This document shows positions 44,660 to 58,536 of a DNA stretch of 64,000 nt, in pieces. The stretch lies in assembly GCA_009885955.1 (NCBI GenBank), contig VFJS01000003.1, forward strand, positions 273,086 through 337,085. Direction: 5' to 3'. This stretch comes from Spirochaetia bacterium. GTDB taxonomy: Bacteria; Spirochaetota; UBA4802; UBA5550. The notes under the pieces are model-generated. The model saw only the letters and a list, made by a program, of their open reading frames with translations. It ran no database searches and was not told where the DNA came from. The position numbers and the translations under genes were made by a program. The stretch's first letter is position 1; each line of letters opens with the position of its first letter.

Positions 44660-46864
44660 GTGTCGAAAATAATAGCTTCAGCGGCCATAAGAGGCGCGCA
44701 TAAAATAATCGGCAACGCCGATAAAAAAGTAAAAGAGGCAATTGATAAGTTCGGGCCCAACCAGGAGGTTGCTTTCCCGAATACGGCCTATTATCTCCCT
44801 ATCATATACGGGATGACAGGCAGAAAAGTAGAAAAATTAAGCGACATGGAAGGGATTATAAAGCTGTGTAAAACACTGCTGCCGCCCCTGGTAAAGGAAA
44901 AACATCATTTTCCCTACCTGGGACCGGTTCTCGATGCGGGGATGGCAACATTCTTTGCGGAGGAGATGTACGAGGCAATAAAGTACATTGAAAACCCCAA
45001 GACCTATGTCCTCGGCGAAGACCCCTCGGATGACAATATCTGGCTCGGTGCGGCAGATGACGTTATTATGAGGAAAAGGGGCGTTGAGTTCGTTGATGGA
45101 ACTGCTCCCGGCTTCGCTGCTATCCTCGGCGGGCCCGAGGATCCGGCAGTGGCGGCCAGGATTGCCCTTGAATTGCAGGAGAAGAACCTCTATGTTTTCA
45201 TGGGCGCCGATTCCAACGGGAAAAAGATGTCTGAACAGCTCAAGCAGCAGGGAGTGCAGATAGGATGGCCCACCAGGCTCGTATCCTTCGGCCCTGAAGT
45301 GAGCTCTGCAGTATTCGCAATCGGATTTGCCACGAGGGCAGCGATGTCCTTCGGCGGTATCGATCCCGGCGATTACCGGAAGATACTGATATACAACAAG
45401 GACAGGGTATTTGCCTTTGCCATGACCTTCGGTTATGTCAATGACGAGTGGTATGCAAACGGTGCCGGCTGTATCAACTGGGGTTTCCCGGTAATAACCG
45501 ATTCACCGACACCGGAGATTCTCCCGACAGGCGTCTGCACATACGAACACGTTGTTTCAAACGTTCCTCATGACCAGATTGTTCAGAGGGCAGTTGAGGT
45601 CAGGGGACTGAAAGTAACTGTTGCAAAAGTACCGGTACCGGTATCATACGGTCCGGCTTTCGAGGGAGAGCGGGTACGGGGAGATGATATCTACCTTGAA
45701 GCAGGCGGCGGAAGGACCCATGCCGTGGAGCTTGTAACATCTTCAGAGATGGATGAGATAACCGATGGTAAAGTTGAGGTTATCGGCCCTGATGTGAAGG
45801 ATGTTAAACCGGGCGCGAAGCTTCCCCTTGCAATATATGTCCAGGTGGCAGGCAGGAAGATGCAGCCCGATTTCGAGCCGATTCTTGAGAGGCAGATTCA
45901 CCACCTCATCAACTATGCCCAGGGCGCAATGCATATAGGCCAGAGGGACATCGCTTGGTTAAGGCTCAGCAAGCAGGCCGTGGATAAAGGCTTCACCATG
46001 AGGCACATTGGAGACATACTCCATGCCAAGTATCACCAGGACTTCGGAAGTATATTTGACAAAGTTCAGGTGACGATTTATACCGAAGAGAAAAAGGTTG
46101 ATGAGATTCTTAAGAAAGCGCGCGCGATTTACAAAGTGCGCGATGAAAGGGTCGCTGGAATGACCGACGAGGATACTGATCCTTTCTATTCATGTACCCT
46201 CTGTCAATCATTCGCTCCTAACCATGTATGTGTTGTAACCCCGGAAAGGACCGGACTCTGCGGAGCCTACAACTGGCTGGATTGCAAGGCATCCTTTGAG
46301 ATAAATCCGACAGGCCCTAACCAGCCGATTCCGAAAGGAGACACAAAAGACGCCTTGTTCGGAACATGGTCAGGGACGGATGATTTCGTGATGAAGGCAT
46401 CCAGGGGCAATGTTCCCACGGTTGACGCATACAGCATCATGAGAAATCCAATGACATCATGCGGCTGTTTTGAGGCGATTGCCGCCGTTCTTCCAACCTG
46501 CAATGGTATCATGACCGTTGACAGGGACACTGCGGCGATGACACCGAGCGGGATGAAGTTTACAACCCTTGCAGGTACCGTGGGCGGCGGAAACGTTACA
46601 CCCGGATTCCTGGGGCACAGTAAAATTTACATCACCAGCAAAAAGTTCATGAAGGCGGAAGGCGGCCTCAAGAGGCTTGTCTGGATGCCGAAGTCGCTCA
46701 AGGAAGAGATAAAGGAGAGGTTTGAAGTCAGGGCTAAAGAGATTGGAATACCGGATCTCCTTGACAGAATAGCTGATGAAACTGTGGCTACAACTGAAGA
46801 AGAGGTGTATGCCTATATTTCAGAGAAGAAGCACCCTGCCCTTGAAATGGAGTCTCTTTTCTAA
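44660..46864 (+). CDS. acsB: acetyl-CoA synthase, CODH/ACS alpha subunit
   Basis: 734 residues, bacterial full-length form with the N-terminal CODH-binding domain (MSKIIASAAIRGAHKIIGNAD). GTG start with AGGAGG upstream. A-cluster ligands are intact: Cys512, Cys515, Cys524 and Cys534 in CTLCQSFAPNHVC...TGLC for the cubane, with Cys515 bridging to the proximal nickel, and Cys601-Gly-Cys603 in SCGCFE for the distal nickel. The numbering is shifted by six from the Moorella enzyme. It joins CO, the methyl group from AcsCD and CoA into acetyl-CoA, or runs in reverse. A strong terminator follows, which may attenuate expression into acsC. Confidence 0.98.
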   Translation: MSKIIASAAIRGAHKIIGNADKKVKEAIDKFGPNQEVAFPNTAYYLPIIYGMTGRKVEKLSDMEGIIKLCKTLLPPLVKEKHHFPYLGPVLDAGMATFFAEEMYEAIKYIENPKTYVLGEDPSDDNIWLGAADDVIMRKRGVEFVDGTAPGFAAILGGPEDPAVAARIALELQEKNLYVFMGADSNGKKMSEQLKQQGVQIGWPTRLVSFGPEVSSAVFAIGFATRAAMSFGGIDPGDYRKILIYNKDRVFAFAMTFGYVNDEWYANGAGCINWGFPVITDSPTPEILPTGVCTYEHVVSNVPHDQIVQRAVEVRGLKVTVAKVPVPVSYGPAFEGERVRGDDIYLEAGGGRTHAVELVTSSEMDEITDGKVEVIGPDVKDVKPGAKLPLAIYVQVAGRKMQPDFEPILERQIHHLINYAQGAMHIGQRDIAWLRLSKQAVDKGFTMRHIGDILHAKYHQDFGSIFDKVQVTIYTEEKKVDEILKKARAIYKVRDERVAGMTDEDTDPFYSCTLCQSFAPNHVCVVTPERTGLCGAYNWLDCKASFEINPTGPNQPIPKGDTKDALFGTWSGTDDFVMKASRGNVPTVDAYSIMRNPMTSCGCFEAIAAVLPTCNGIMTVDRDTAAMTPSGMKFTTLAGTVGGGNVTPGFLGHSKIYITSKKFMKAEGGLKRLVWMPKSLKEEIKERFEVRAKEIGIPDLLDRIADETVATTEEEVYAYISEKKHPALEMESLF

Positions 46865-46873
46865 TATATGAAT

Positions 46874-46907
46874 AACGGGGTTATTAAATAAGTTTAATAA
46901 CCCCGTT
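46874..46907 (+). terminator. 15-bp hairpin between acsB and acsC
   Basis: AACGGGGTTATTAAA (46874-46888) pairs perfectly with 46893-46907 around TAAG. It lies 10 bases after the acsB stop and 39 before acsC. It may act as partial terminator or as an mRNA-stability hairpin that sets subunit ratios. Confidence 0.7.
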
Positions 46908-46945
46908 CATAAGAAATAAATAGTTAAATTACAAGGAGATCATAA

Positions 46946-48292
46946 ATGGCACTTACAGGAATAGAAATATTTAAATTATTGCCGAAGACAAATTGCGCGG
47001 ATTGCGGTGTTCCAACCTGTCTGGCCTTTGCCATGAAGCTCGCTGCAGGTCAGGCCGAGCTGGCTAGCTGTCCGCATGTTTCCGCCGAATCAAAGGCCAA
47101 GCTGGATACAGCTTCAGCGCCCCCTGTTCTTCCGGTAACAATCGGATCAGGAGACAGCATATTTAAAACAGGAGCTGAAACTGTTCTATTCAGGCACGAA
47201 AAAACCTTTGTCAATCCGACGGGCCTTGCGGTTCTGGTCACCGATAAGATGAGCGATGCTGATGTTGATAAAAGGCTGAAGAACTTCAATGACCTGCATT
47301 ATGACAGGGTCGGCATGATGCTAAAATCCGACCTTGTTGCGGTAAAGTCCGAATCGGGAGATGCCGCTGCTTTTGAAAAGCTGGTCAACAAGGTTAAAGG
47401 GGCCGTTAAATGCGGACTCATAATCATGAGCGATAAGTTTGAAACGCTTCAGGCGGGAGCCAAGGCTGCTGCTGACAGAAAGCCTCTTCTCTATGCAGCA
47501 ACGAAGGATAATGTTGATAAGGTTGGTAACCTGGCGAAAGAGCTCAAATGCTCAGTTGCAGTTAAAGGAAACGGCCTTGACGAGGTCATAGAACTGACAA
47601 CCAAGCTTACCGGCATGGGACTTAAAGAAATAGTTATCGACACCGGTTCAAGGAAATTGGGTAAAGCATTTGAGGAGCAGGTCATCATGAGACGTGCTGC
47701 CATTAAAAAGCTTTTCCGGCCGCTCGGATTTCCCACAATAACATTTCCCTGTGAAATGACGGATAATCTTATGGAAGAGACGCTCATAGCATCGGCTTTT
47801 ATCGCAAAATATGCGGGGATTGTTGTTCTTTCTGACTTACAGGGCCACAGCATTTTTCCACTGCTTGTTGAAAGGATGAATATTTACACCGACCCGCAGA
47901 GGCCGATGGCAACGGAATCGAAAATTTATGAAATTAATAATCCCAATGAAAACTCCCCGGTACTTGTTACAACCAATTTCTCCCTTACCTATTTTATCGT
48001 ATCAGGCGAAATCGAGGGGAGCAGGGTTCCATCATGGCTCCTGGTAATGGACTGTGAAGGTCTTTCAGTTCTAACCGCATGGGCAGCAGGAAAATTTGTT
48101 GCTGATGCCATTGGGCCCTTTGTAAAAAAATCCGGGATAACCGAAAAGATAAAACACAGGAAATTAATTATTCCAGGCTACTCAGCCAACATAAGCGGCG
48201 AACTTGAAGAAGAGCTGCCTGACTGGAAAATAACAATCGGTCCGAGAGAGGCTGCGCATATTCCGGCCTTCTTGAAAGAGTTCGTAAAATAA
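46946..48292 (+). CDS. acsC: CODH/ACS gamma subunit (corrinoid iron-sulfur protein large subunit)
   Basis: 448 residues, AAGGAG before ATG 46946. The N-terminal [4Fe-4S] domain has CADCGVPTCLAFAMKLAAGQAELASCP, the four cysteines that bind the cluster used for reductive activation of the corrinoid. A TIM-barrel domain follows, and the C-terminal region SYSANISGELEEELPDWKITIGPREAAHIPAFLKEF binds the cobamide. It carries the methyl group between AcsE and AcsB. Confidence 0.96.
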   Translation: MALTGIEIFKLLPKTNCADCGVPTCLAFAMKLAAGQAELASCPHVSAESKAKLDTASAPPVLPVTIGSGDSIFKTGAETVLFRHEKTFVNPTGLAVLVTDKMSDADVDKRLKNFNDLHYDRVGMMLKSDLVAVKSESGDAAAFEKLVNKVKGAVKCGLIIMSDKFETLQAGAKAAADRKPLLYAATKDNVDKVGNLAKELKCSVAVKGNGLDEVIELTTKLTGMGLKEIVIDTGSRKLGKAFEEQVIMRRAAIKKLFRPLGFPTITFPCEMTDNLMEETLIASAFIAKYAGIVVLSDLQGHSIFPLLVERMNIYTDPQRPMATESKIYEINNPNENSPVLVTTNFSLTYFIVSGEIEGSRVPSWLLVMDCEGLSVLTAWAAGKFVADAIGPFVKKSGITEKIKHRKLIIPGYSANISGELEEELPDWKITIGPREAAHIPAFLKEFVK

Positions 48293-48319
48293 TTCAGCAA
48301 TAAAGGAAGGAGGAGAAAA

Positions 48320-49207
48320 ATGGCAAAATTTGTAAGAATTGGCGAGAACCTTAATGTCATGTCAAAAATACTCGGGCCTGCAATGAAAGAAAGGAATGCC
48401 GGCCCTATTCAGGATATGGCGAAAAAGGAGACAGAGAAAGGTGTTGATTTTGTAGACCTCAATATAGGGCCCGCAAGAAAGGACGGGGCTGCAATGATGG
48501 AATGGGTGGTAAATACGGTTCAGGCAGTCACAAACCTCCCCCTGGCCCTGGATACTACCAACCTGGATGCCATGGAAGCAGGCCTCAAGGTGGCCAAGAA
48601 CAGCCCCCTTATTAACTCGGTAACACTTCAGTCCGATCGTTTTGAGGCAGGCCTGAAACTTGCTGCAAAGTACAAAGCCAGCGTTGTCGCGGTATTATGG
48701 AGTGATACCGGCATGCCCAGGGATGCCAACGAAAGGGCGATGCATATTGTAGAGTTTGTACAGAAAGCCTCAGAGCTGGGCATTCCAAATGAAAAAATAT
48801 TCATCGACCCCATAGTATCTCCCATAAGTGTTGAGATAAACCAGGTGAAGGCCTGCGTAGAGTGTATGGGTATGCTGCAGGACATTGCTCCCGGATGCAA
48901 ATCGACTGTAGGTCTGTCAAACATTTCCAACGGTGCGCCGGAGGAATTGAGGCCATGGCTGAACATCACCTATCTCATCATGCTTATAAAAAACGGCCTC
49001 TACTCAGCCATTGTTGACTCATTTGACGACAGGCTGAAATCTTTTGTCACCGGGGAAAGACAGAATATTGTCAATCTGGTAAATAAAATGCTCGATGGTG
49101 AAAAGGTGGATATGAATTCACTCAACGACGAGGAGAAGAAATTCGCCAAGTCCGTTAAAGTATTGACAGGAGAAACTCTTTTTTCCAACTCCTGGCTGGA
49201 AAGTTAA
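48320..49207 (+). CDS. acsE: methyltetrahydrofolate:corrinoid iron-sulfur protein methyltransferase
   Basis: 295 residues, about 30 longer than the Moorella AcsE at its C-terminus. Pterin-binding TIM barrel: RIGENLNVMSKILGPAMKERN, GVDFVDLNIGPARKDG, LALDTTNLDAMEAGLK, IFIDPIVSPISVEINQV, STVGLSNISNGAPEELRPWLN. It moves the methyl group from methyl-THF to the cobalt of AcsCD, joining the folate branch to the carbonyl branch. It ends the acs unit; a hairpin terminator follows at 49221. Confidence 0.95.
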   Translation: MAKFVRIGENLNVMSKILGPAMKERNAGPIQDMAKKETEKGVDFVDLNIGPARKDGAAMMEWVVNTVQAVTNLPLALDTTNLDAMEAGLKVAKNSPLINSVTLQSDRFEAGLKLAAKYKASVVAVLWSDTGMPRDANERAMHIVEFVQKASELGIPNEKIFIDPIVSPISVEINQVKACVECMGMLQDIAPGCKSTVGLSNISNGAPEELRPWLNITYLIMLIKNGLYSAIVDSFDDRLKSFVTGERQNIVNLVNKMLDGEKVDMNSLNDEEKKFAKSVKVLTGETLFSNSWLES

Positions 49208-49639: not shown

Positions 49640-50311
49640 ATGGTTAATGCTACTGAAGAAATAAAAAAAGAAACAGCCTCCGCAGAAGATAATAAAGCAG
49701 GTATTGCCGGGTCTACATCAGGTTTTCCTGTATCCATGAAAGTATACAAGCTGAAGGACCTCAAGCCCTTCTCCCGGGAAATAATTAAATCCAGCGGCGA
49801 GAACATCAATAACTGCTACCAGTGCAAGAAATGTTCCAACGGCTGCCCGATAACCTATGCTATGGATATCCAGCCCCATCTGATCATTAAAATGATACAG
49901 CTTGGCATGGAGAAGGAAGTGCTTGGCTCCAAAACAATATGGCTCTGTGCCGCCTGCGAAACATGCGGGACAAGATGCCCCAATGAGATCAAGCTGGCCG
50001 ATATGATGGATTCCCTGAGGCAGATGGCTGAGACAAAGGGATATGTACTCGGACAGAAGAATGCCTCCATATTCCATAAATCCTTCCTTGATTCAATTGA
50101 GAAATACGGCAGGGTGTATGAGATCGGGATGATAAGGGATTTTACCATTAAAGCAAGCGGACTTTTCGGAAAATTTTTTGACGGGTCTCTCATGAGGGAC
50201 GGAAAGCTCGGGATAAAGCTTATTAAAAAAGGGAAACTCGGCTTTTCACCCCACAAGATAAAGGGGACAGCTCAGATTAAAGAAATATTTAAAAAGCTCA
50301 AAAGAGGTTAA
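49640..50311 (+). CDS. hdrC: HdrC-like 2x[4Fe-4S] subunit
   Basis: 223 residues. Two ferredoxin motifs: NCYQCKKCSNGCP and LCAACETCGTRCPNE, as in heterodisulfide reductase subunit C. The N-terminal 40 residues and C-terminal 80 residues are variable. In the Hdr complex it carries electrons between HdrA and HdrB. The gap to hdrB is 8 bases. Its place at the head of hdrC-hdrB-hdrA-mvhD-metV-metF shows that here Hdr works with methylenetetrahydrofolate reductase and not with a methanogen heterodisulfide. Confidence 0.92.
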   Translation: MVNATEEIKKETASAEDNKAGIAGSTSGFPVSMKVYKLKDLKPFSREIIKSSGENINNCYQCKKCSNGCPITYAMDIQPHLIIKMIQLGMEKEVLGSKTIWLCAACETCGTRCPNEIKLADMMDSLRQMAETKGYVLGQKNASIFHKSFLDSIEKYGRVYEIGMIRDFTIKASGLFGKFFDGSLMRDGKLGIKLIKKGKLGFSPHKIKGTAQIKEIFKKLKRG

Positions 50312-50319
50312 TACATACT

Positions 50320-51174
50320 ATGAAAGTTTCATATTATCCCGGATGTTCCCTTCATGGGACCGGACGGGAATACGCAGAATCTACTGAAGCTGTTTTTAAG
50401 TCCCTTGGCACCGAACTGGTTGAAATTGAAGACTGGAACTGCTGCGGCGCTTCATCGGGGCACAGCAGGAACAGGGATGTGGCCGTGGGGCTTCCTGCAA
50501 GAAATTTACTTCTGGCAAAGAAGAGCGGTTTCACTGATATGGTCATACCTTGCTCTGCATGTTTTCAGAGGACCAAGGTTGCCGAGCATGAATTGAAGAA
50601 CCATCCTGAAATGTTCCCGGAAATAAAATATGACGGCGGCGTTCATATAATGGACATTGTAACCTTTGTCAGTGAAAATATAGGTATTGATACAATAAAG
50701 AAGAAGATAAAGAAACATCTCGATGGCCTTAAAGCAGTGACGTATTACGGCTGCCTTACGATGAGGCACCCGTCAATTACCGGTTCAAAGGACTTTGAGA
50801 ATCCTCGAAATATGGATGCCCTGCTGACGGCCCTGGGGATAGATGTGTTGGACTGGTCGTACAAAACAGACTGCTGCGGAGGGAGCCTTGTTCTTACAAG
50901 GCCGGATATCGTCTGGGAACTCAGCGGCAGGTTATATGACAAGGCGATTGAAGCAGGAGCCGAGTGTATAGTAACCCTCTGCCCGCTTTGCCAGGGCAAC
51001 CTGGATCAGCAGCAGGCTGAGATATCGAAAAAAAATAACCGGAAGTACAATCTTCCAGTATTTTATTTTACCGAGCTGATGGGGCTTGCCATGGGTGAAG
51101 GTGATGTGAATACCTGGTTCAAAAGGCACCTGGTTGATCCAACGGCCCTTCTCAAGTCAAAAAAATTTTTATAG
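50320..51174 (+). CDS. hdrB: HdrB-like subunit with two CCG domains
   Basis: 284 residues. Both cysteine-rich CCG motifs are present: YYPGCSLHGTGREY...DWNCCGASS...PCSACFQRTK and TYYGCLTMRHP...DCCGGSLVLTRPD...VTLCPLCQGNLDQQQ. In HdrB these bind the non-cubane [4Fe-4S] clusters that reduce disulfides; in MetVF-linked complexes the final acceptor is not established. Ribosome site and 8-base gap place it in the hdr operon. Confidence 0.94.
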   Translation: MKVSYYPGCSLHGTGREYAESTEAVFKSLGTELVEIEDWNCCGASSGHSRNRDVAVGLPARNLLLAKKSGFTDMVIPCSACFQRTKVAEHELKNHPEMFPEIKYDGGVHIMDIVTFVSENIGIDTIKKKIKKHLDGLKAVTYYGCLTMRHPSITGSKDFENPRNMDALLTALGIDVLDWSYKTDCCGGSLVLTRPDIVWELSGRLYDKAIEAGAECIVTLCPLCQGNLDQQQAEISKKNNRKYNLPVFYFTELMGLAMGEGDVNTWFKRHLVDPTALLKSKKFL

Positions 51175-51210: not shown

Positions 51211-54200
51211 ATGACTGAAAGTAATGTTGTAGAATTGAAGGATAAAAGAAAATCAGGAGCCGGCGTCGGAGCTGTAATGGTTGTCGGTGGCGGGATTGCA
51301 GGTATGCAGTCAGCCCTTGACCTTGCCAACAGCGGGTTCAAGGTATATCTTGTGGAAAGGAATACTGCAATTGGCGGAAGGATGTCACAGCTCGACAAGA
51401 CATTCCCTACAAACGACTGCGCCATGTGCGTCATTTCCCCGAAGCTTGTTGAGGTCGATAAAAATCTGAATATCGAAATCATCACGAATGCCGAGGTGAT
51501 GGCCCTTGAAGGCGAAGTGGGGAATTTTGATGTTACCGTGCGCCAGCATCCCAGGTATGTTGACCTGGAAAAGTGCACCTCGTGCGGCGACTGTTTCAAA
51601 GTCTGCCCTGTCTCCATACCCAATGATTTCAATTACAATCTTGATGAAAAAAATGCCGTATATAAGAGATATCCTCAGGGAATTCCCAATGCCTATGCCA
51701 TAACCAAGGCCGAAAGGGCTCCCTGTGTCCTGACCTGCCCTACAGGGATAAATGTACAGGGGTATGTAGCCCTTACGGGAGACGGGAAATTCGAGGAAGC
51801 CTACAAGCTCATAACCGAAAGGAATCCATTTCCATCTGTCTGCGGCCGCGTCTGCCACCATCCATGCGAAGAGAAATGCAACAGGGGCGAGATAGATGAA
51901 CCGGTTGCGATAAATAATATCAAGCGGTTTGCATCGGAATGGGTAAAGAAAAAAAGGGATAAAGAAGGTTACCTGCCGGAGAAACCGGCAATAGATCCAT
52001 CAAAGCCGAAGATAGCCATTGTCGGCGGAGGTCCCTCGGGTCTTACATGCGCCAGGGACCTGATTCTCGATGGTTACCAGGTATCACTTTTTGAGGCTGA
52101 GGAGAAATTAGGCGGAGCCATGAGATTCGGAATTCCGAAGTACAGGCTCATGGAAGAATACCTTGACTGGGACATAAAGAATATTGTTGATCTCGGGCTA
52201 GATGTAAAAACCGGGAAAAGACTTGGAAAAGATTTTACGATAAAATCATTGAAGGAGAACGGATATAAGGCTGTCTACCTTGGAATCGGACTCCCGGTTG
52301 CGAGGAAAGTTCCTTTCAAGGGAGCTGATCTTAACGGTGTTCTGTGGGGAATGGACTTTTTATCCAGCGTCAGCAAGGGGGACAAGCCAAAGCTCGGGAA
52401 GAAGGTTGTTGTCATCGGCGGAGGAAACGTCGCCGTGGACGTGGCAATGACCGCGAAACGTGAAGGTGCCGATGAGGTCAGCATCGTATCCCTGGAATGC
52501 AGGGAGGAGATGCCTGCCCACGAATGGGAGATCCAGGATGCCGTTGATGAAGGCGTTAAGCTTAACCCATCCTGGGGGCCCGATGAAATCCTCGGCAAGG
52601 ACGGCAAGGTAACCGGGATAAAACTTGTCCAGTGCACTTGTGTCTTTGATCCCAATGGAAAATTCAACCCCCAGTTTGATAAAACTTGTGAAAATAAGAT
52701 AGATGCTGATACGATAATAATCGCCATTGGCCAGGCAGCTGACCTGGGCTGGATAAACGATGACAGCCCGGTGGAGAAGCAGGGCGGAGGTATTAAATCC
52801 GACTCACTCACTCTATCAACCAATGTTGAAGGTATATTCTGTGGAGGGGATGTTGCATACGGACCAAAATCAGTTGTTGAAGCAATAAACCAGGGCCATG
52901 AGGCTGCAGAGAGCATAAGGAGATTTGTTGAGGGAAGGAATATTTCAGAAGGGCGGAAAAAGCCCGACAGGGAAGCTGCAAAAGTTCCCAAGGACAGGCC
53001 CTATTATAAAAGGAAACGGTATGTTGCCGATAAGACTCCGGTTGCCGACAGAAAGGGGAATTACAAAGAGGTTGAACATACCTTTGATGAGATGGCTGCC
53101 GTAGACGAGGCGAAACGCTGTGTTGCCTGCGGTATTTGCAGTGAATGTCTGCAATGCGTAGTTGCATGCCTCCCTGGTGCAATCGATCACAGCCAGGTTG
53201 CGGAGGATTCCAGTATCCGGGTTGGGACTGTTGTTCTTGCCCCGGGGTTTGATCTTTTTGATGCATATAAAAAGCCTGAATACGGGTACGGGCAGTATCA
53301 GAATGTAATCACTTCCATGGAGATGGAGAGGACATTCAGCGCCTCGGGCCCCTACCAGGGACATGTTTCAAGGCCGTCGGACAAGAAACTCCCTGCAAGG
53401 ATTGCATGGCTCCAGTGCGTCGGTTCCCGGGATGCAACCATCGGCAAGGAGTATTGTTCATCGGTGTGCTGTACCTATGCGACAAAGCAGGCAACCCTTG
53501 CCAAGGACCATTACGGTGATAAGGTGGGCGCAACTATTTTTCTGAATGATCTCAGGACATTCGGAAAGGGTTTTGACAGGTATTACAACAGTGCAGTACA
53601 GAAATATGGCGTGAGGTATGTGAAGAGTTTCATATCCACCATAAAGGAGGTTCCCGGAACAAAGAATCTCCTGATTAAGTATATAAATGAGGAAGGCCAG
53701 CTGGTTGAAGATGAATTCGACCTGGTTGTCCTTTCCATGGGACTTGTTCCCTCGGAATCTTCCAAAGATTTAGCGGAAAGAATGAAAATCGATGTTAATG
53801 AATACGGCTTTACCAAGAGACAGGATATGAGGCCCGGAGAAACATCGAGGAAGGGGATTTTTGTGGCCGGTGTTTTCGAGGCGCCGAAAGATATTCCCGA
53901 GACCGTAATGAGCGCGAGCAGCGCCGCTGCGCTTTCATCGGAACTCCTCTCCTCATCAAGGGGCACCATGGTCAGCAACAAGATATATCCCGAAGAGAAG
54001 GATGTGACAGGCAGGGAGCCGCGGGTAGGGGTTTTTGTCTGCCACTGCGGGATAAATATTGCCGGTGTGGTTGATGTACCGGCCGTGGTGGAATACGCAA
54101 GGACAATCCCAGGGGTTGTCCATGTTGAGAATAACCTTTTTACCTGCTCCACAGACACCCAGGTGAAAATAAAGGAGATGATTGAGGAGCATGATCTCAC

Positions 54201-55683
54201 CAGGGTTGTGGTAGCGTCCTGCTCGCCCAGGACCCATGAGCCCCTGTTCCAGGATACCATAATGGAAGCAGGTTTGAATAAGTACCTTTTTGACATGGCT
54301 AACATTCGCGACCAGTGTTCATGGGTGCATGCCTCTAATCACGGCAATGCAACGGAGAAGGCCAAGGATCTTGTCAGGATGTCCATTGCCAGGGTAAAGA
54401 CTCTTGAGATGCTCCATGAACTTCCTTTTATCGTGAACCAGGACGCCCTTGTCATTGGCGGAGGTATTGCCGGATTGACAGCGGCGCTGGGCGTGGCGAA
54501 TCAGGGGTACATGACGCATCTTGTTGAAATTACAGAGGAGCTTGGCGGAAATGCAAGGCATCTCTATTATACTCTTGAAGGCTCGGAGCCGAAAAAATAT
54601 CTTGCTGACCTTATTAATAAGGTGAATGCAAACGAAAAGATCAAGGTTCACCTGAAGTCAAAGGTAATAAAATATTCCGGGCACGTGGGTAATTTTACAA
54701 CAGAGATTGAAAAGGACGGGAAGAGGGATAGTGTAACGCATGGAGCAATTATTGTGGCCACGGGCGGTGTTGAATACAAGCCGGTTGAATACCTCTACGG
54801 AAAAAATGACCACGTGCTTACTCAGGTTGAGCTTGAAAAGAGAATAGCGGAAAACAGTACCAGCCTTCAACAGGTAAAATCGGTAACCATGATACAGTGC
54901 GTCGGGTCCCGTGATGCCGAGCATCCCTACTGCAGCAGATACTGCTGTTCCGCGGCAATAAAAAATGCCCTCCGCCTTAAAGAACTGAATCCCGATATGA
55001 ATATTAATATTCTGTACAGAGATATCAGGACCTATGCCTTCAAGGAACTCTATTACAAGAAAGCCAGGGATCTGGGAATAAATTTTCTGAGTTATGACGA
55101 GGAGAAGAAGCCAGAGGTATCTGCCGGGGAAGGCGGAAATCTGAAGATAATCAATTATGACAGGGGGCTGAAAGCCGGCCTTGAAATGGAGAGCGAACTG
55201 CTGGTGCTCAGCGCAGCTATCAGGTCCAATCCTGAAGCCAAGATGATAGCACAGGCGCTCAAGCTTCCCAATGATGCTGATAATTTCTTCCTTGAAGCGC
55301 ACATGAAACTCAGGCCGCTGGATTTCGCAAATGTCGGTGTTTTCCTTTGCGGCCTTGCGCATTCACCCAAACTTGTGGAAGAGAGCATATCCCAGGCTAA
55401 AGGAGCCGTTTCACGGGCATGTACCGTTCTGTCCAAACATGAGATGATGGTAGGCGGCATAGTCTCCCATGTCAATGAAGAGCATTGTGTCGCATGTCTC
55501 ACCTGTGTCAGGATCTGTCCTTATGGTGTTCCTAAAATTAATAATAAGGGTGTTGCTGAAATTGCCGAGGCATCATGCCAGGGCTGCGGGAACTGCGTGA
55601 GCGCATGTCCCAGGAAGGCAATTGAGCTTTATCATTACAAGGATGACCAGATTATCAGCAAATGCGAAGTGATATATGCCTGA
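51211..55683 (+). CDS. hdrA: triple-module HdrA fusion: HdrA-like, GltD/NfnB-like NAD(P)H module, full HdrA
   Basis: 1490 residues, more than twice a normal HdrA. Residues about 20-130 are an HdrA FAD region without the usual N-terminal domain (VMVVGGGIAGMQSALDLANSG, LDKTFPTNDCAMCVISPKL, a ferredoxin motif CTSCGDCFKVCP). Residues about 169-580 are a glutamate-synthase-small-subunit/NfnB-like unit: CVLTCPTGINVQGY, VCGRVCHHPCEEKCNRG, AIVGGGPSGLTCARDL (FAD), VVVIGGGNVAVDVAMTAKREG (NAD(P)H), GIFCGGDVAYGPKSVVEAI. HdrA-like sequence resumes at about 610-915 (CVACGICSECLQCVVAC, QCVGSRD, CCTYATKQA). Residues about 939-1490 are a complete HdrA: GVFVCHCGINIAG, ALVIGGGIAGLTAALG, IQCVGSRDAEHPYCSRYCC, and CVACLTCVRICP plus CQGCGNCVSACP. 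A flavin-based bifurcating hub with a built-in NAD(P)H site is the natural inference. Confidence 0.93.
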   Translation: MTESNVVELKDKRKSGAGVGAVMVVGGGIAGMQSALDLANSGFKVYLVERNTAIGGRMSQLDKTFPTNDCAMCVISPKLVEVDKNLNIEIITNAEVMALEGEVGNFDVTVRQHPRYVDLEKCTSCGDCFKVCPVSIPNDFNYNLDEKNAVYKRYPQGIPNAYAITKAERAPCVLTCPTGINVQGYVALTGDGKFEEAYKLITERNPFPSVCGRVCHHPCEEKCNRGEIDEPVAINNIKRFASEWVKKKRDKEGYLPEKPAIDPSKPKIAIVGGGPSGLTCARDLILDGYQVSLFEAEEKLGGAMRFGIPKYRLMEEYLDWDIKNIVDLGLDVKTGKRLGKDFTIKSLKENGYKAVYLGIGLPVARKVPFKGADLNGVLWGMDFLSSVSKGDKPKLGKKVVVIGGGNVAVDVAMTAKREGADEVSIVSLECREEMPAHEWEIQDAVDEGVKLNPSWGPDEILGKDGKVTGIKLVQCTCVFDPNGKFNPQFDKTCENKIDADTIIIAIGQAADLGWINDDSPVEKQGGGIKSDSLTLSTNVEGIFCGGDVAYGPKSVVEAINQGHEAAESIRRFVEGRNISEGRKKPDREAAKVPKDRPYYKRKRYVADKTPVADRKGNYKEVEHTFDEMAAVDEAKRCVACGICSECLQCVVACLPGAIDHSQVAEDSSIRVGTVVLAPGFDLFDAYKKPEYGYGQYQNVITSMEMERTFSASGPYQGHVSRPSDKKLPARIAWLQCVGSRDATIGKEYCSSVCCTYATKQATLAKDHYGDKVGATIFLNDLRTFGKGFDRYYNSAVQKYGVRYVKSFISTIKEVPGTKNLLIKYINEEGQLVEDEFDLVVLSMGLVPSESSKDLAERMKIDVNEYGFTKRQDMRPGETSRKGIFVAGVFEAPKDIPETVMSASSAAALSSELLSSSRGTMVSNKIYPEEKDVTGREPRVGVFVCHCGINIAGVVDVPAVVEYARTIPGVVHVENNLFTCSTDTQVKIKEMIEEHDLTRVVVASCSPRTHEPLFQDTIMEAGLNKYLFDMANIRDQCSWVHASNHGNATEKAKDLVRMSIARVKTLEMLHELPFIVNQDALVIGGGIAGLTAALGVANQGYMTHLVEITEELGGNARHLYYTLEGSEPKKYLADLINKVNANEKIKVHLKSKVIKYSGHVGNFTTEIEKDGKRDSVTHGAIIVATGGVEYKPVEYLYGKNDHVLTQVELEKRIAENSTSLQQVKSVTMIQCVGSRDAEHPYCSRYCCSAAIKNALRLKELNPDMNINILYRDIRTYAFKELYYKKARDLGINFLSYDEEKKPEVSAGEGGNLKIINYDRGLKAGLEMESELLVLSAAIRSNPEAKMIAQALKLPNDADNFFLEAHMKLRPLDFANVGVFLCGLAHSPKLVEESISQAKGAVSRACTVLSKHEMMVGGIVSHVNEEHCVACLTCVRICPYGVPKINNKGVAEIAEASCQGCGNCVSACPRKAIELYHYKDDQIISKCEVIYA

Positions 55684-55778
55684 TTCAGGCATTGATATAA
55701 TCAGTTTTACATTAACGGGAACAGGCTTGTTTACATATTCGGGAGTTCCCGTATAAATCTAACGAGGAGAAATACTGG

Positions 55779-56195
55779 ATGAGCAGTGATTTTGAACCAA
55801 AGATAGTTGCATTCTGCTGCAAATTTTGCGCTTACACCGCGGCTGATCTCGCAGGCTCAATGAGGCTTGAATATCCATCGACCGTCCGCATTATACAGCT
55901 GTTATGCAGCGGAAGGGTGGATGTCCTGCACCTTCTGAAGGCCTTTGAGAACGGGGCAGATGCAGCCTTTGTGGCCGGGTGAGAAGAGGGCGATTGCAAT
56001 TTCCTGGAAGGAAATTATAGAGCAAAGAACAGGGTCAAATATGCGAAGATGCTTCTGGAAGAAGTTGGATTGGGTGAAGGGCGTCTTGAGATGTTCAACA
56101 TCGGAGCTTCAGAAGGCCCCAAGTTCGCCGAGGCTGTTAAAAAGATGACTGAAAAGGTAAAAGAGCTGGGCCCAAACCCGCTCGGGCATAAATAA
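55779..56195 (+). CDS. mvhD: MvhD-like iron-sulfur subunit with predicted selenocysteine at residue 68
   Basis: 138 residues if UGA 55980-55982 is read as selenocysteine; otherwise the frame stops at 67. N-terminal FEPKIVAFCCKFCAYTAADLAGSMRLEYP and VRIIQLLCSGRVDVLHLLKAFENGADAAFVAG match MvhD/FrhD. The next family residues are C-x-x-GDC; here UGA stands for that Cys and the frame continues EEGDCNFLEGNYRAKNRVKYAKML to ELGPNPLGHK-stop, a perfect family match. A SECIS-like hairpin follows (55998-56016). MvhD carries a [2Fe-2S] cluster and passes electrons between a hydrogenase or other dehydrogenase and HdrA. Annotation programs will truncate it or split it in two. Confidence 0.9.
55998..56016 (+). 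promoter_or_regulatory. bacterial SECIS-like hairpin for selenocysteine insertion
   Basis: AATTTCC-TGGAA-GGAAATT: a 7-bp perfect stem with a 5-base loop whose second base is G (56006), 24 bases after the UGA. This agrees with bacterial SECIS rules: a small apical loop with G in its first two positions, 16-37 bases downstream of the UGA, inside the coding region. Confidence 0.8.
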
Positions 56196-56224: not shown

Positions 56225-56893
56225 ATGATTATTGCTGATCGTAAACCTATTGATGATATAAAGAATATGCTATCGCCTTACAAAAAAATTCTTCTCGTGG
56301 GATGCGGAACATGCGTCAGCGTCTGCATGACCGGCGGTGAAAAAGAGGTAGGTATTCTGGCAAGCGAGCTCCGGATTATATCGGAGCTTGAGAAAAAAGG
56401 GTGGGAGATATCGGAAGATACAATCCAGAGGCAGTGTGACAGGGAGTATATTGAACCGCTGAGTGAAAAATTTGAAGCGGCGGATATCATTATGTCCCTT
56501 GCATGCGGTGTAGGGATACAATACATGGCTGAGGTATTTCCCCGGCATATGGTTCTCCCGGCAATCAATACCACCTTTTATGGAACAACCGTGAGCGAAG
56601 GCGAATGGCAGGAAAGGTGCGCCGGATGCGGAGACTGTGTTCTGCATTTGACCATGGGGATATGCCCTGTGGCAAGATGTTCAAAAGGGCTTTACAACGG
56701 ACCATGCGGCGGCACGGACAAGGGAAAGTGCGAAATAAGCAGCGATCTCGACTGCGCATGGTATATGATATACAACAGAATGAAAGATCTTGGAAAGCTT
56801 GATATGATCGGGACATTCATCCCCCCAAGGAGCTGGAAAGCAAGCCTGAACGGCGGACCGAGAAAAAGAGTTAGGGAGGACCTAAAAAAATGA
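56225..56893 (+). CDS. metV: MetV, zinc/iron-sulfur partner of methylenetetrahydrofolate reductase
   Basis: 222 residues. Family PF12225 (MTHFR C-terminal) marks: KKILLVGCGTCVSVCMTGGEKEV, DIIMSLACGVGIQYMAEVFP, and a Cys-rich tail CAGCGDCVLHLTMGICPVARCSKGLYNGPCGGTDKGKCE. In Moorella MetV pairs with MetF and carries iron-sulfur clusters that wire MetF to the Hdr unit. It overlaps metF by four bases and follows mvhD by 29. Confidence 0.93.
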   Translation: MIIADRKPIDDIKNMLSPYKKILLVGCGTCVSVCMTGGEKEVGILASELRIISELEKKGWEISEDTIQRQCDREYIEPLSEKFEAADIIMSLACGVGIQYMAEVFPRHMVLPAINTTFYGTTVSEGEWQERCAGCGDCVLHLTMGICPVARCSKGLYNGPCGGTDKGKCEISSDLDCAWYMIYNRMKDLGKLDMIGTFIPPRSWKASLNGGPRKRVREDLKK

Positions 56894-57819
56894 AGGCTGG
56901 AAGTAATTTAGAAAAAGTATTTGCAAGCGGCGGATTTGCCGTGACAGGGGAACTTGGGCCGCCCAAGGGAAATGATGGGGAAGTAGTGAAAAAAAAGGCA
57001 GCCATGCTGAAGGGTTTTGTGGATGCCGTAAATATAACCGATAACCAGACTGCGGTTGTACGGATGTCGAGCATAGCAGCGGCTACAATCGCCCTTCAGG
57101 CCGGGATTGAGCCCATAATGCAGATGGTCTGCAGGGACAGGAACAGGATAGCCATGCAGAGCGATCTTCTCGGCGCCACGGCATTCGGCCTTAAAAATAT
57201 ACTCTGCCTCAGCGGGGATCATCAGAGTTTCGGGAATCAGCCCGGGGCAAAAAATGTGTATGACATAGATTCCATGCAGCTTATCAGCACGGTAAAGCGG
57301 ATGAGGGATGAGAAGAAGCTTCTCAATTCCGATGATGTCCTTGAAGGTGAAGTAAAGATGTTCATAGGAGCTGCAGAGAATCCCTTTGCCGAGCCCTTTG
57401 AATACAGGGCATACCGGCTGAAGAAAAAAGTTGAGGCTGGTGTTGATTTCATCCAGACACAGTGTATTTACGACATGAAGATATTCAGGGAATGGATGAA
57501 AGTTGTCTGCGATCTGGGGCTCAACGAAAAATGCTATATCATGGCCGGTGTAACGCCTCTTAAATCAGCCGGTATGACAAAATACATGGCGAGTAAAGTT
57601 CCGGGAATTATCATCCCACAGGAAATAATCGACAGGATGAGCGCTGCTCCCAAGGATAAGGCTGCTGAAGAAGGGATCAAAATCTGCTGTGAACAGATCC
57701 AGGAACTGAGGGAGATTAAAGGTGTTGCAGGTATACATCTTATGGCAATAGAATGGGAACACAGGTCCGGGGAAATCATAGAAAAAGCCGGATTACTGCC
57801 TCGTCCCAAGATAGACTGA
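56890..57819 (+). CDS. metF: 5,10-methylenetetrahydrofolate reductase
   Basis: 309 residues. MetF flavin TIM barrel: GGFAVTGELGPPKGNDGEVVKKKAAMLKGFVDAVNITDNQ, PIMQMVCRDRNRIAMQSDLLGATAFGLKNILCLSGDHQ, AAENPFAEPFEYRAYRLKKKVEAGVDFIQTQCIYDM, VPGIIIPQEIIDRM. It interconverts methylene-THF and methyl-THF, the step before AcsE. The ATG overlaps the metV stop, so equimolar synthesis is expected. The neighbouring Hdr and MvhD genes suggest the electrons come through a bifurcating or confurcating complex and not directly from NADH. Confidence 0.95.
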   Translation: MKAGSNLEKVFASGGFAVTGELGPPKGNDGEVVKKKAAMLKGFVDAVNITDNQTAVVRMSSIAAATIALQAGIEPIMQMVCRDRNRIAMQSDLLGATAFGLKNILCLSGDHQSFGNQPGAKNVYDIDSMQLISTVKRMRDEKKLLNSDDVLEGEVKMFIGAAENPFAEPFEYRAYRLKKKVEAGVDFIQTQCIYDMKIFREWMKVVCDLGLNEKCYIMAGVTPLKSAGMTKYMASKVPGIIIPQEIIDRMSAAPKDKAAEEGIKICCEQIQELREIKGVAGIHLMAIEWEHRSGEIIEKAGLLPRPKID

Positions 57820-57861: not shown

Positions 57862-58536
57862 ATGGTGAAGGAAAAAAATAACTTTCCCCGGGTAAAGCCG
57901 GGTGTACAGGACAATTATGATGTGGCATTCCGGGAAACTTTCAGCATGCTGAAATCGATGGATGCCATGGAAGCTGCAAGGAAAAGCGGGTCAGAAATTT
58001 CAAGCGACAGCAGGGGGGTTGTGATTTCAGTCCCTTTTCTCGGACGCAGGATTATCGTTGATGTATCAGGGTCAACGGTAACATTTGCCGGTTCCGGTGA
58101 CGAAGTCCCGCAATGGCTGCAGATAGTAACGCTACATTACCTTGTTTTTGCAAAAGGAACCATTTCAGACGGCAGCCAGATAACCTTCAAACAGATAGAA
58201 GGCGGACTATCCTACTATCCGGTCTTTCAGAAAAGAACCATCAGGCCGATAATCAGGGCATTTGGTCCGGACTTCAGGGAGTTCATCAGGCATGGATTAT
58301 CCATAGGCGGAACCGAGGAACATTTCGGGGATTATTCACTAAAAATCGGCGCCTTCCCAAGAGTTAATCTTACCTATGTCATATGGAAAGGCGATGATGA
58401 GTTTCCCGTAGAGGGGAACGTAATGTTCGATTCGGTCATTTCAGATTATTTATCAACTGAGGACATCGCAATCCTCTGCAGCATGACTGCATTCATGATT
58501 ATCAGATCGTATCATGAAGAAAAGGCGAAGAAGTAA
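57862..58536 (+). CDS. DUF3786 protein of Wood-Ljungdahl gene clusters
   Basis: 224 residues, ATG 57862. FPRVKPGVQDNYDVAFRETF, SGSTVTFAGSGDEVPQWLQIVTLHYLVFAKG, GGLSYYPVFQKRTIRPIIRAFG, YSLKIGAFPRVNLTYVIWKGDDEFPVEGNVMFDS and DYLSTEDIAILCSMTAF match the DUF3786 family, which recurs beside CODH/ACS and corrinoid methyltransferase genes in anaerobes. No catalytic motif is evident. It may support reactivation or assembly of the pathway; this is inferred from location only. Confidence 0.8.
   Translation: MVKEKNNFPRVKPGVQDNYDVAFRETFSMLKSMDAMEAARKSGSEISSDSRGVVISVPFLGRRIIVDVSGSTVTFAGSGDEVPQWLQIVTLHYLVFAKGTISDGSQITFKQIEGGLSYYPVFQKRTIRPIIRAFGPDFREFIRHGLSIGGTEEHFGDYSLKIGAFPRVNLTYVIWKGDDEFPVEGNVMFDSVISDYLSTEDIAILCSMTAFMIIRSYHEEKAKK

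Follow-up and report, generated by a model that had tools for sequence, protein, structure and literature searches.

A spirochaete mvhD gene with an in-frame UGA codon that is very probably read as selenocysteine

The mvhD gene at positions 55779–56195 on the forward strand of the analysed window, a 64,000-nucleotide stretch of a spirochaete draft genome, almost certainly encodes an MvhD protein containing selenocysteine (Sec), with the UGA at codon 68 decoded as Sec. The gene lies in an hdrCBA-mvhD-metVF operon, the host genome encodes the complete Sec machinery, and a genome of another genus has TGA at the identical codon. The hairpin that follows the UGA has the form expected of a bacterial SECIS element, and is by itself little proof.

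Reading frame and product of mvhD

The mvhD frame starts with the ATG at 55779, which has an RBS-like GAGGAG 9 nt upstream (55764–55769, forward strand), and runs through 67 sense codons to a TGA at 55980–55982. It then continues with 70 sense codons to a TAA at 56193–56195, giving a product of 138 residues by way of one UGA; these coordinates are exactly those of the original prediction. Automatic ORF calling stops the gene at 55982 and would label it truncated, which the read-through reading corrects. The read-through product matches PF02662 (FlpD family) over the entire profile, positions 1–123 of 123, with E = 1.3e-47 and 161 bits (cut-off 22.3). The N-terminal half alone matches profile positions 1–59 (E = 1.4e-22) and the C-terminal half positions 62–123 (4.7e-17), and since the two halves separately match adjoining segments, the protein runs on across the UGA uninterrupted.

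The UGA codon corresponds to residue 68 in a C-x-x-G-D-C motif and falls, as had been predicted, in an invariant Cys column of our alignment (A1). The columns of C14, C17, C43, C68 (Cys or UGA) and C73 are all invariant in this alignment, they are nearly always Cys or UGA in wider sets of homologues, and all five positions are kept in the window protein. An AlphaFold2 model with C placed at residue 68 has a mean pLDDT of 89.6 and superimposes on MvhD of the Methanothermococcus Hdr-Mvh complex (5odc_D) with a TM score of 0.92 and 1.2 Å. A scan of the window for read-through genes, based on a coding-composition score, gave mvhD as the sole convincing case, and six other TGA read-through candidates look by eye like antisense or shadow frames. 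Among plasmids, a search returned a single relative, in Ilyobacter.

Operon and electron path

The gene order on the forward strand is acsB-acsC-acsE-like, hdrC, hdrB, hdrA, mvhD, metV and metF. The CODH/ACS genes lie directly upstream at 44660–49207 and give the operon a Wood-Ljungdahl setting, with matches to NF040764 (1083 bits) and NF003195 (622 bits), and the third of them, the acsE-like gene, matches PRK07535 with 221 bits, which is below the cut-off. They are followed by an hdrC-like gene for an iron-sulfur subunit (49640–50311; TIGR03290, E = 1.3e-19) and an hdrB-like gene (50320–51174; TIGR03288, E = 7.9e-42), both below the cut-off of their models. The hdrA gene (51211–55683) encodes 1490 residues with an inserted GltD/NfnA-like NAD(P)-binding module at about residues 166–575. 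Downstream of mvhD are metV (56225–56893; PF12225, E = 1.6e-34), for whose product a search of solved structures at E 0.001 gave no sequence relative, and metF, encoding methylene-tetrahydrofolate reductase (56890–57819; PF02219, E = 5.2e-41). The hdrCBA-mvhD-metVF order is kept in three related genomes, G004, L041 and L042, which are described below. A conserved ORF of 224 codons (57862–58536) is located between metF and a gene for a CooC/MinD-like ATPase; it has no NCBIfam match, and a homologue with 51% identity is found at the same place in G004.

The original prediction held that the Hdr-MvhD electron path uses selenium. UGA68 in mvhD speaks for this, with selenium use itself predicted, and the claim stands for the MvhD step only. 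The operon HdrA has Cys (NDCAMC) at a known Sec site, where another HdrA of the host has UGA (NDCSMU), and its gene contains no internal UGA; we therefore discarded the possibility of two selenoproteins, HdrA and MvhD, in this operon. As far as the genes show, selenium would enter the path of this operon at MvhD only.

Selenocysteine machinery of the host

The draft genome of the host is 4.77 Mb and 98.35% complete. It encodes a tRNA-Sec (selC) that scores 70.9 bits, above the Rfam cut-off, and has the anticodon TCA according to ARAGORN, as well as adjoining selA (492 bits) and selB (295 bits) genes on contig 112, and selD (365 bits). The prediction that the organism makes selenocysteine is thus borne out at the level of genes, and selB and the selC tRNA, whose absence would have spoken against it, are both present.

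Other selenoprotein genes of the host were sampled family by family. There is one in-frame TGA within selD, two fdhA genes have it at familiar Sec sites (RLUHAP and RIUHSS), and one hdrA outside the window operon has UGA at the known Sec site mentioned above. Two further mvhD paralogues carry an in-frame UGA in the motifs CSYU and CHWU, which corresponds to residue 17 and not to residue 68. Taken together, the UGA codons in selD, the two fdhA genes, hdrA and the mvhD genes make it likely that the host has at least seven selenoprotein genes. The hdrA with UGA and the mvhD with the CHWU motif form a second hdrA-mvhD pair (L084, contig 92, 28000–36000), where both genes contain an in-frame UGA at a known Sec site.

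Codon 68 in related mvhD genes

Three genomes related to the host are informative. G004 (mvhD locus L078) is a separate genome, of the host's family but from a different genus, and L041 and L042 are two MAGs titled Spirochaetes bacterium from the same order, which group with the host genome in an RpoB tree, so that the host belongs to the Spirochaetota. The mvhD gene of G004 has TGA at the identical codon 68, and the two MAGs have TGC there. The differences between the host and G004 genes are mostly in third positions, with the conserved cysteines and the UGA kept. In our sample of the host phylum, the window gene and that of G004 are the sole cases of UGA at residue 68, and the remaining mvhD genes with UGA that we fetched from the phylum have it at residue 17. 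The two spirochaete genes with UGA68 are probably of common ancestry, and should then not be counted as independent origins.

Altogether about 45 distinct mvhD genes have UGA at residue 68, and 43 of them are from another phylum, that of the Bacillota MAG L044. Every mvhD gene with UGA that we retrieved there has the codon at this residue (UHPGDC), but the genes were picked for their TGA content, so the counts give no frequency. A nearly invariant hairpin of at least 8 bp, whose loop lies 20 nt downstream of the UGA, is present in 42 of the 43, whereas 67 of 86 homologues with Cys lack such an element. Because of these roughly 43 genes and their hairpin, residue 68 of MvhD is, judging from the sequences, a well-used Sec site. 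In the L168–L207 and L132–L158 genes of the same phylum a nearly invariant 19-nt SECIS hairpin, TGCCACTATGNTAGTGGCA, follows directly on UGA68, synonymous sites included. The window gene resembles the genes of this phylum in the position of the UGA, in the protein family and in having a hairpin at a similar distance. Their SECIS, UGCCACUAUGNUAGUGGCA, has its loop at +20 and a folding energy of about -10 kcal/mol, whereas the window hairpin has another sequence, sits one codon further downstream with its loop at +23, and reaches -5.2 kcal/mol.

With UGA in two genera, UGC followed by a partly kept hairpin in two sister MAGs, and Sec at residue 17 in the paralogues, we tentatively raise the possibility, which we consider rather less likely than not, that in the host order residue 68 of the MvhD from the methylene-tetrahydrofolate reductase operon has recently switched between Cys and Sec. 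If so, these genes would be a natural series bearing on the reason for selenium in an iron-sulfur electron carrier. With the pairs of Cys- and Sec-type MvhD orthologues found here, the two residues could be compared cleanly within a [2Fe-2S] protein.

The hairpin downstream of the UGA codon

The SECIS-like hairpin AAUUUCCU-GGA-AGGAAAUU is located at 55998–56016 on the forward strand, with its 5' arm starting 15 nt after the UGA. It can fold in two ways, with 7 bp and a UGGAA loop or with 8 bp and a GGA loop, and the 7-bp hairpin with a G-containing loop of five bases that had been predicted is present as described. The usual bacterial SECIS has an apical loop with a G, and the window hairpin, with a loop starting 23 nt after the UGA, fits this form.

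The hairpin had also been called a textbook SECIS, and here only part of the claim holds. The form is right, but against shuffled sequences the z-score is only -2.2, an equally good element of the bSECIS type arises in 9% of synonymous recodings of the peptide NFLEGNY, which is inherently prone to encode a hairpin, and one is found at 12% of ordinary codon positions in neighbouring genes. The hairpin alone is therefore little proof, and after the recoding control we no longer use it as strong evidence for Sec. Its conservation carries more weight. All 19 nt are identical between the window gene and G004, and synonymous codon differences number 0 of 6 within the hairpin compared with 62 of 103 in the rest of the gene (Fisher p = 0.005), which lends support to a SECIS role. 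The hairpin is partly kept at the same place in the two sister MAGs with TGC at codon 68, where the 60 nt counted from codon 68 contain nearly the same hairpin as that following the TGA. This hairpin may be a fossil SECIS left after a change from Sec to Cys, or an effect of the encoded peptide.

Alternative readings of the UGA codon

The TGA could be a sequencing or assembly error for TGC or TGT in an ordinary Cys-type gene, and the close orthologues in L041 and L042 do have TGC, one base away. G004, however, is a separate genome from another genus whose mvhD differs synonymously at 62 of 103 codons outside the hairpin, and it has TGA at the same codon; an error shared with so diverged a gene is very unlikely. 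The full Sec machinery of the host and its other genes with TGA at Sec sites point in the same direction. A true stop, leaving a pseudogene or two split polypeptides, would agree with the automatic ORF call that ends at 55982, and read-through is itself a prediction. Yet the second half is in frame and retains both its coding composition and its match to the FlpD profile, mvhD has no other disabling lesion, and G004 keeps the conserved cysteines and the UGA with mostly third-position changes, making a true stop extremely improbable.

Several host genes have UGA in frame, as would also be seen if the codon had been reassigned throughout the genome, for example to Trp. This explanation is refuted for practical purposes: the UGA genes identified have the codon at known Sec positions, the genome contains selA, selB, selC and selD, and there is no internal UGA in the operon hdrA or in acsB, metF, selA, selB and rpoB. 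Decoding of UGA68 as Sec thus remains the preferred reading.

Proposed role of Sec68

With the machinery encoded in the genome, the UGA at codon 68 would be read as Sec by SelB and tRNA-Sec, and the hairpin starting 15 nt downstream would assist the decoding. The product should be an electron-transfer subunit, MvhD, that carries a [2Fe-2S] cluster. Residue Sec68 would either bind this cluster or lie near it, since it replaces one of five conserved Cys residues, several of which are presumably cluster ligands; our search found no usable literature on the exact cluster ligands of MvhD. By analogy to Moorella and Sporomusa, the protein would work in an HdrCBA-MvhD-MetVF methylene-tetrahydrofolate reductase complex, and the operon and homology suggest that it passes electrons between HdrA, which is a flavin enzyme, and the partners of HdrA. 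MvhD homologues bind a [2Fe-2S] cluster and pass electrons to HdrA (PMC12350162).

Comparison with known systems

Sec at residue 68 of MvhD is not new, and Sec-containing MvhD is a well-known class of selenoproteins. Desulfobacterium autotrophicum HRM2 has four Sec-containing proteins of the MvhD/FrhD/VhuD family (PF02662), mvhD1, 2, 3 and 5 (PMC2702500), and a Sec-containing MvhD is also known from Desulfococcus multivorans (PMC5109826). As in the window, these genes are read through a UGA, are linked to hdr genes and occur in genomes with Sec machinery, but both organisms are sulfate reducers, whereas the window host is a spirochaete with mvhD in a metVF operon. A fusion of HdrA and glutamate synthase like the window hdrA is called HdrL in D. 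autotrophicum. In the structures 9sfi and 9t1s, chain K, the delta subunit of an F420-non-reducing hydrogenase, has X in the alignment columns of both known Sec positions, residues 17 and 68. It is a homologue of MvhD with a non-standard residue at the column of Sec68, and we infer that the X stands for Sec; it has two such residues, whereas the window protein has Cys at 17. A literature search found no paper on 9SFI.

Linked hdr, mvhD and metVF genes encode the HdrCBA-MvhD-MetVF methylene-tetrahydrofolate reductase of Moorella thermoacetica and Sporomusa ovata (PMC9430772). The window operon has the same linked hdrCBA-mvhD-metVF genes, from which the complex and its reductase activity may be predicted, and its HdrA with the GltD module is of a similar length, 1490 residues compared with about 1487 in Moorella (PMC9430772). 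The paper on these two bacteria does not mention selenium (PMC9430772), whereas the window MvhD has a predicted Sec68. A 2026 review lists MvhD with up to two Sec residues and confines Sec-containing hydrogenase proteins, including MvhD/VhuD, to sulfate reducers and methanogens (PMC13188914). The finding is correct, helps annotation and is of an ordinary kind. It predicts Sec-dependent Hdr/MvhD chemistry for a spirochaete, and together with the metVF setting this widens the range given in the review a little.
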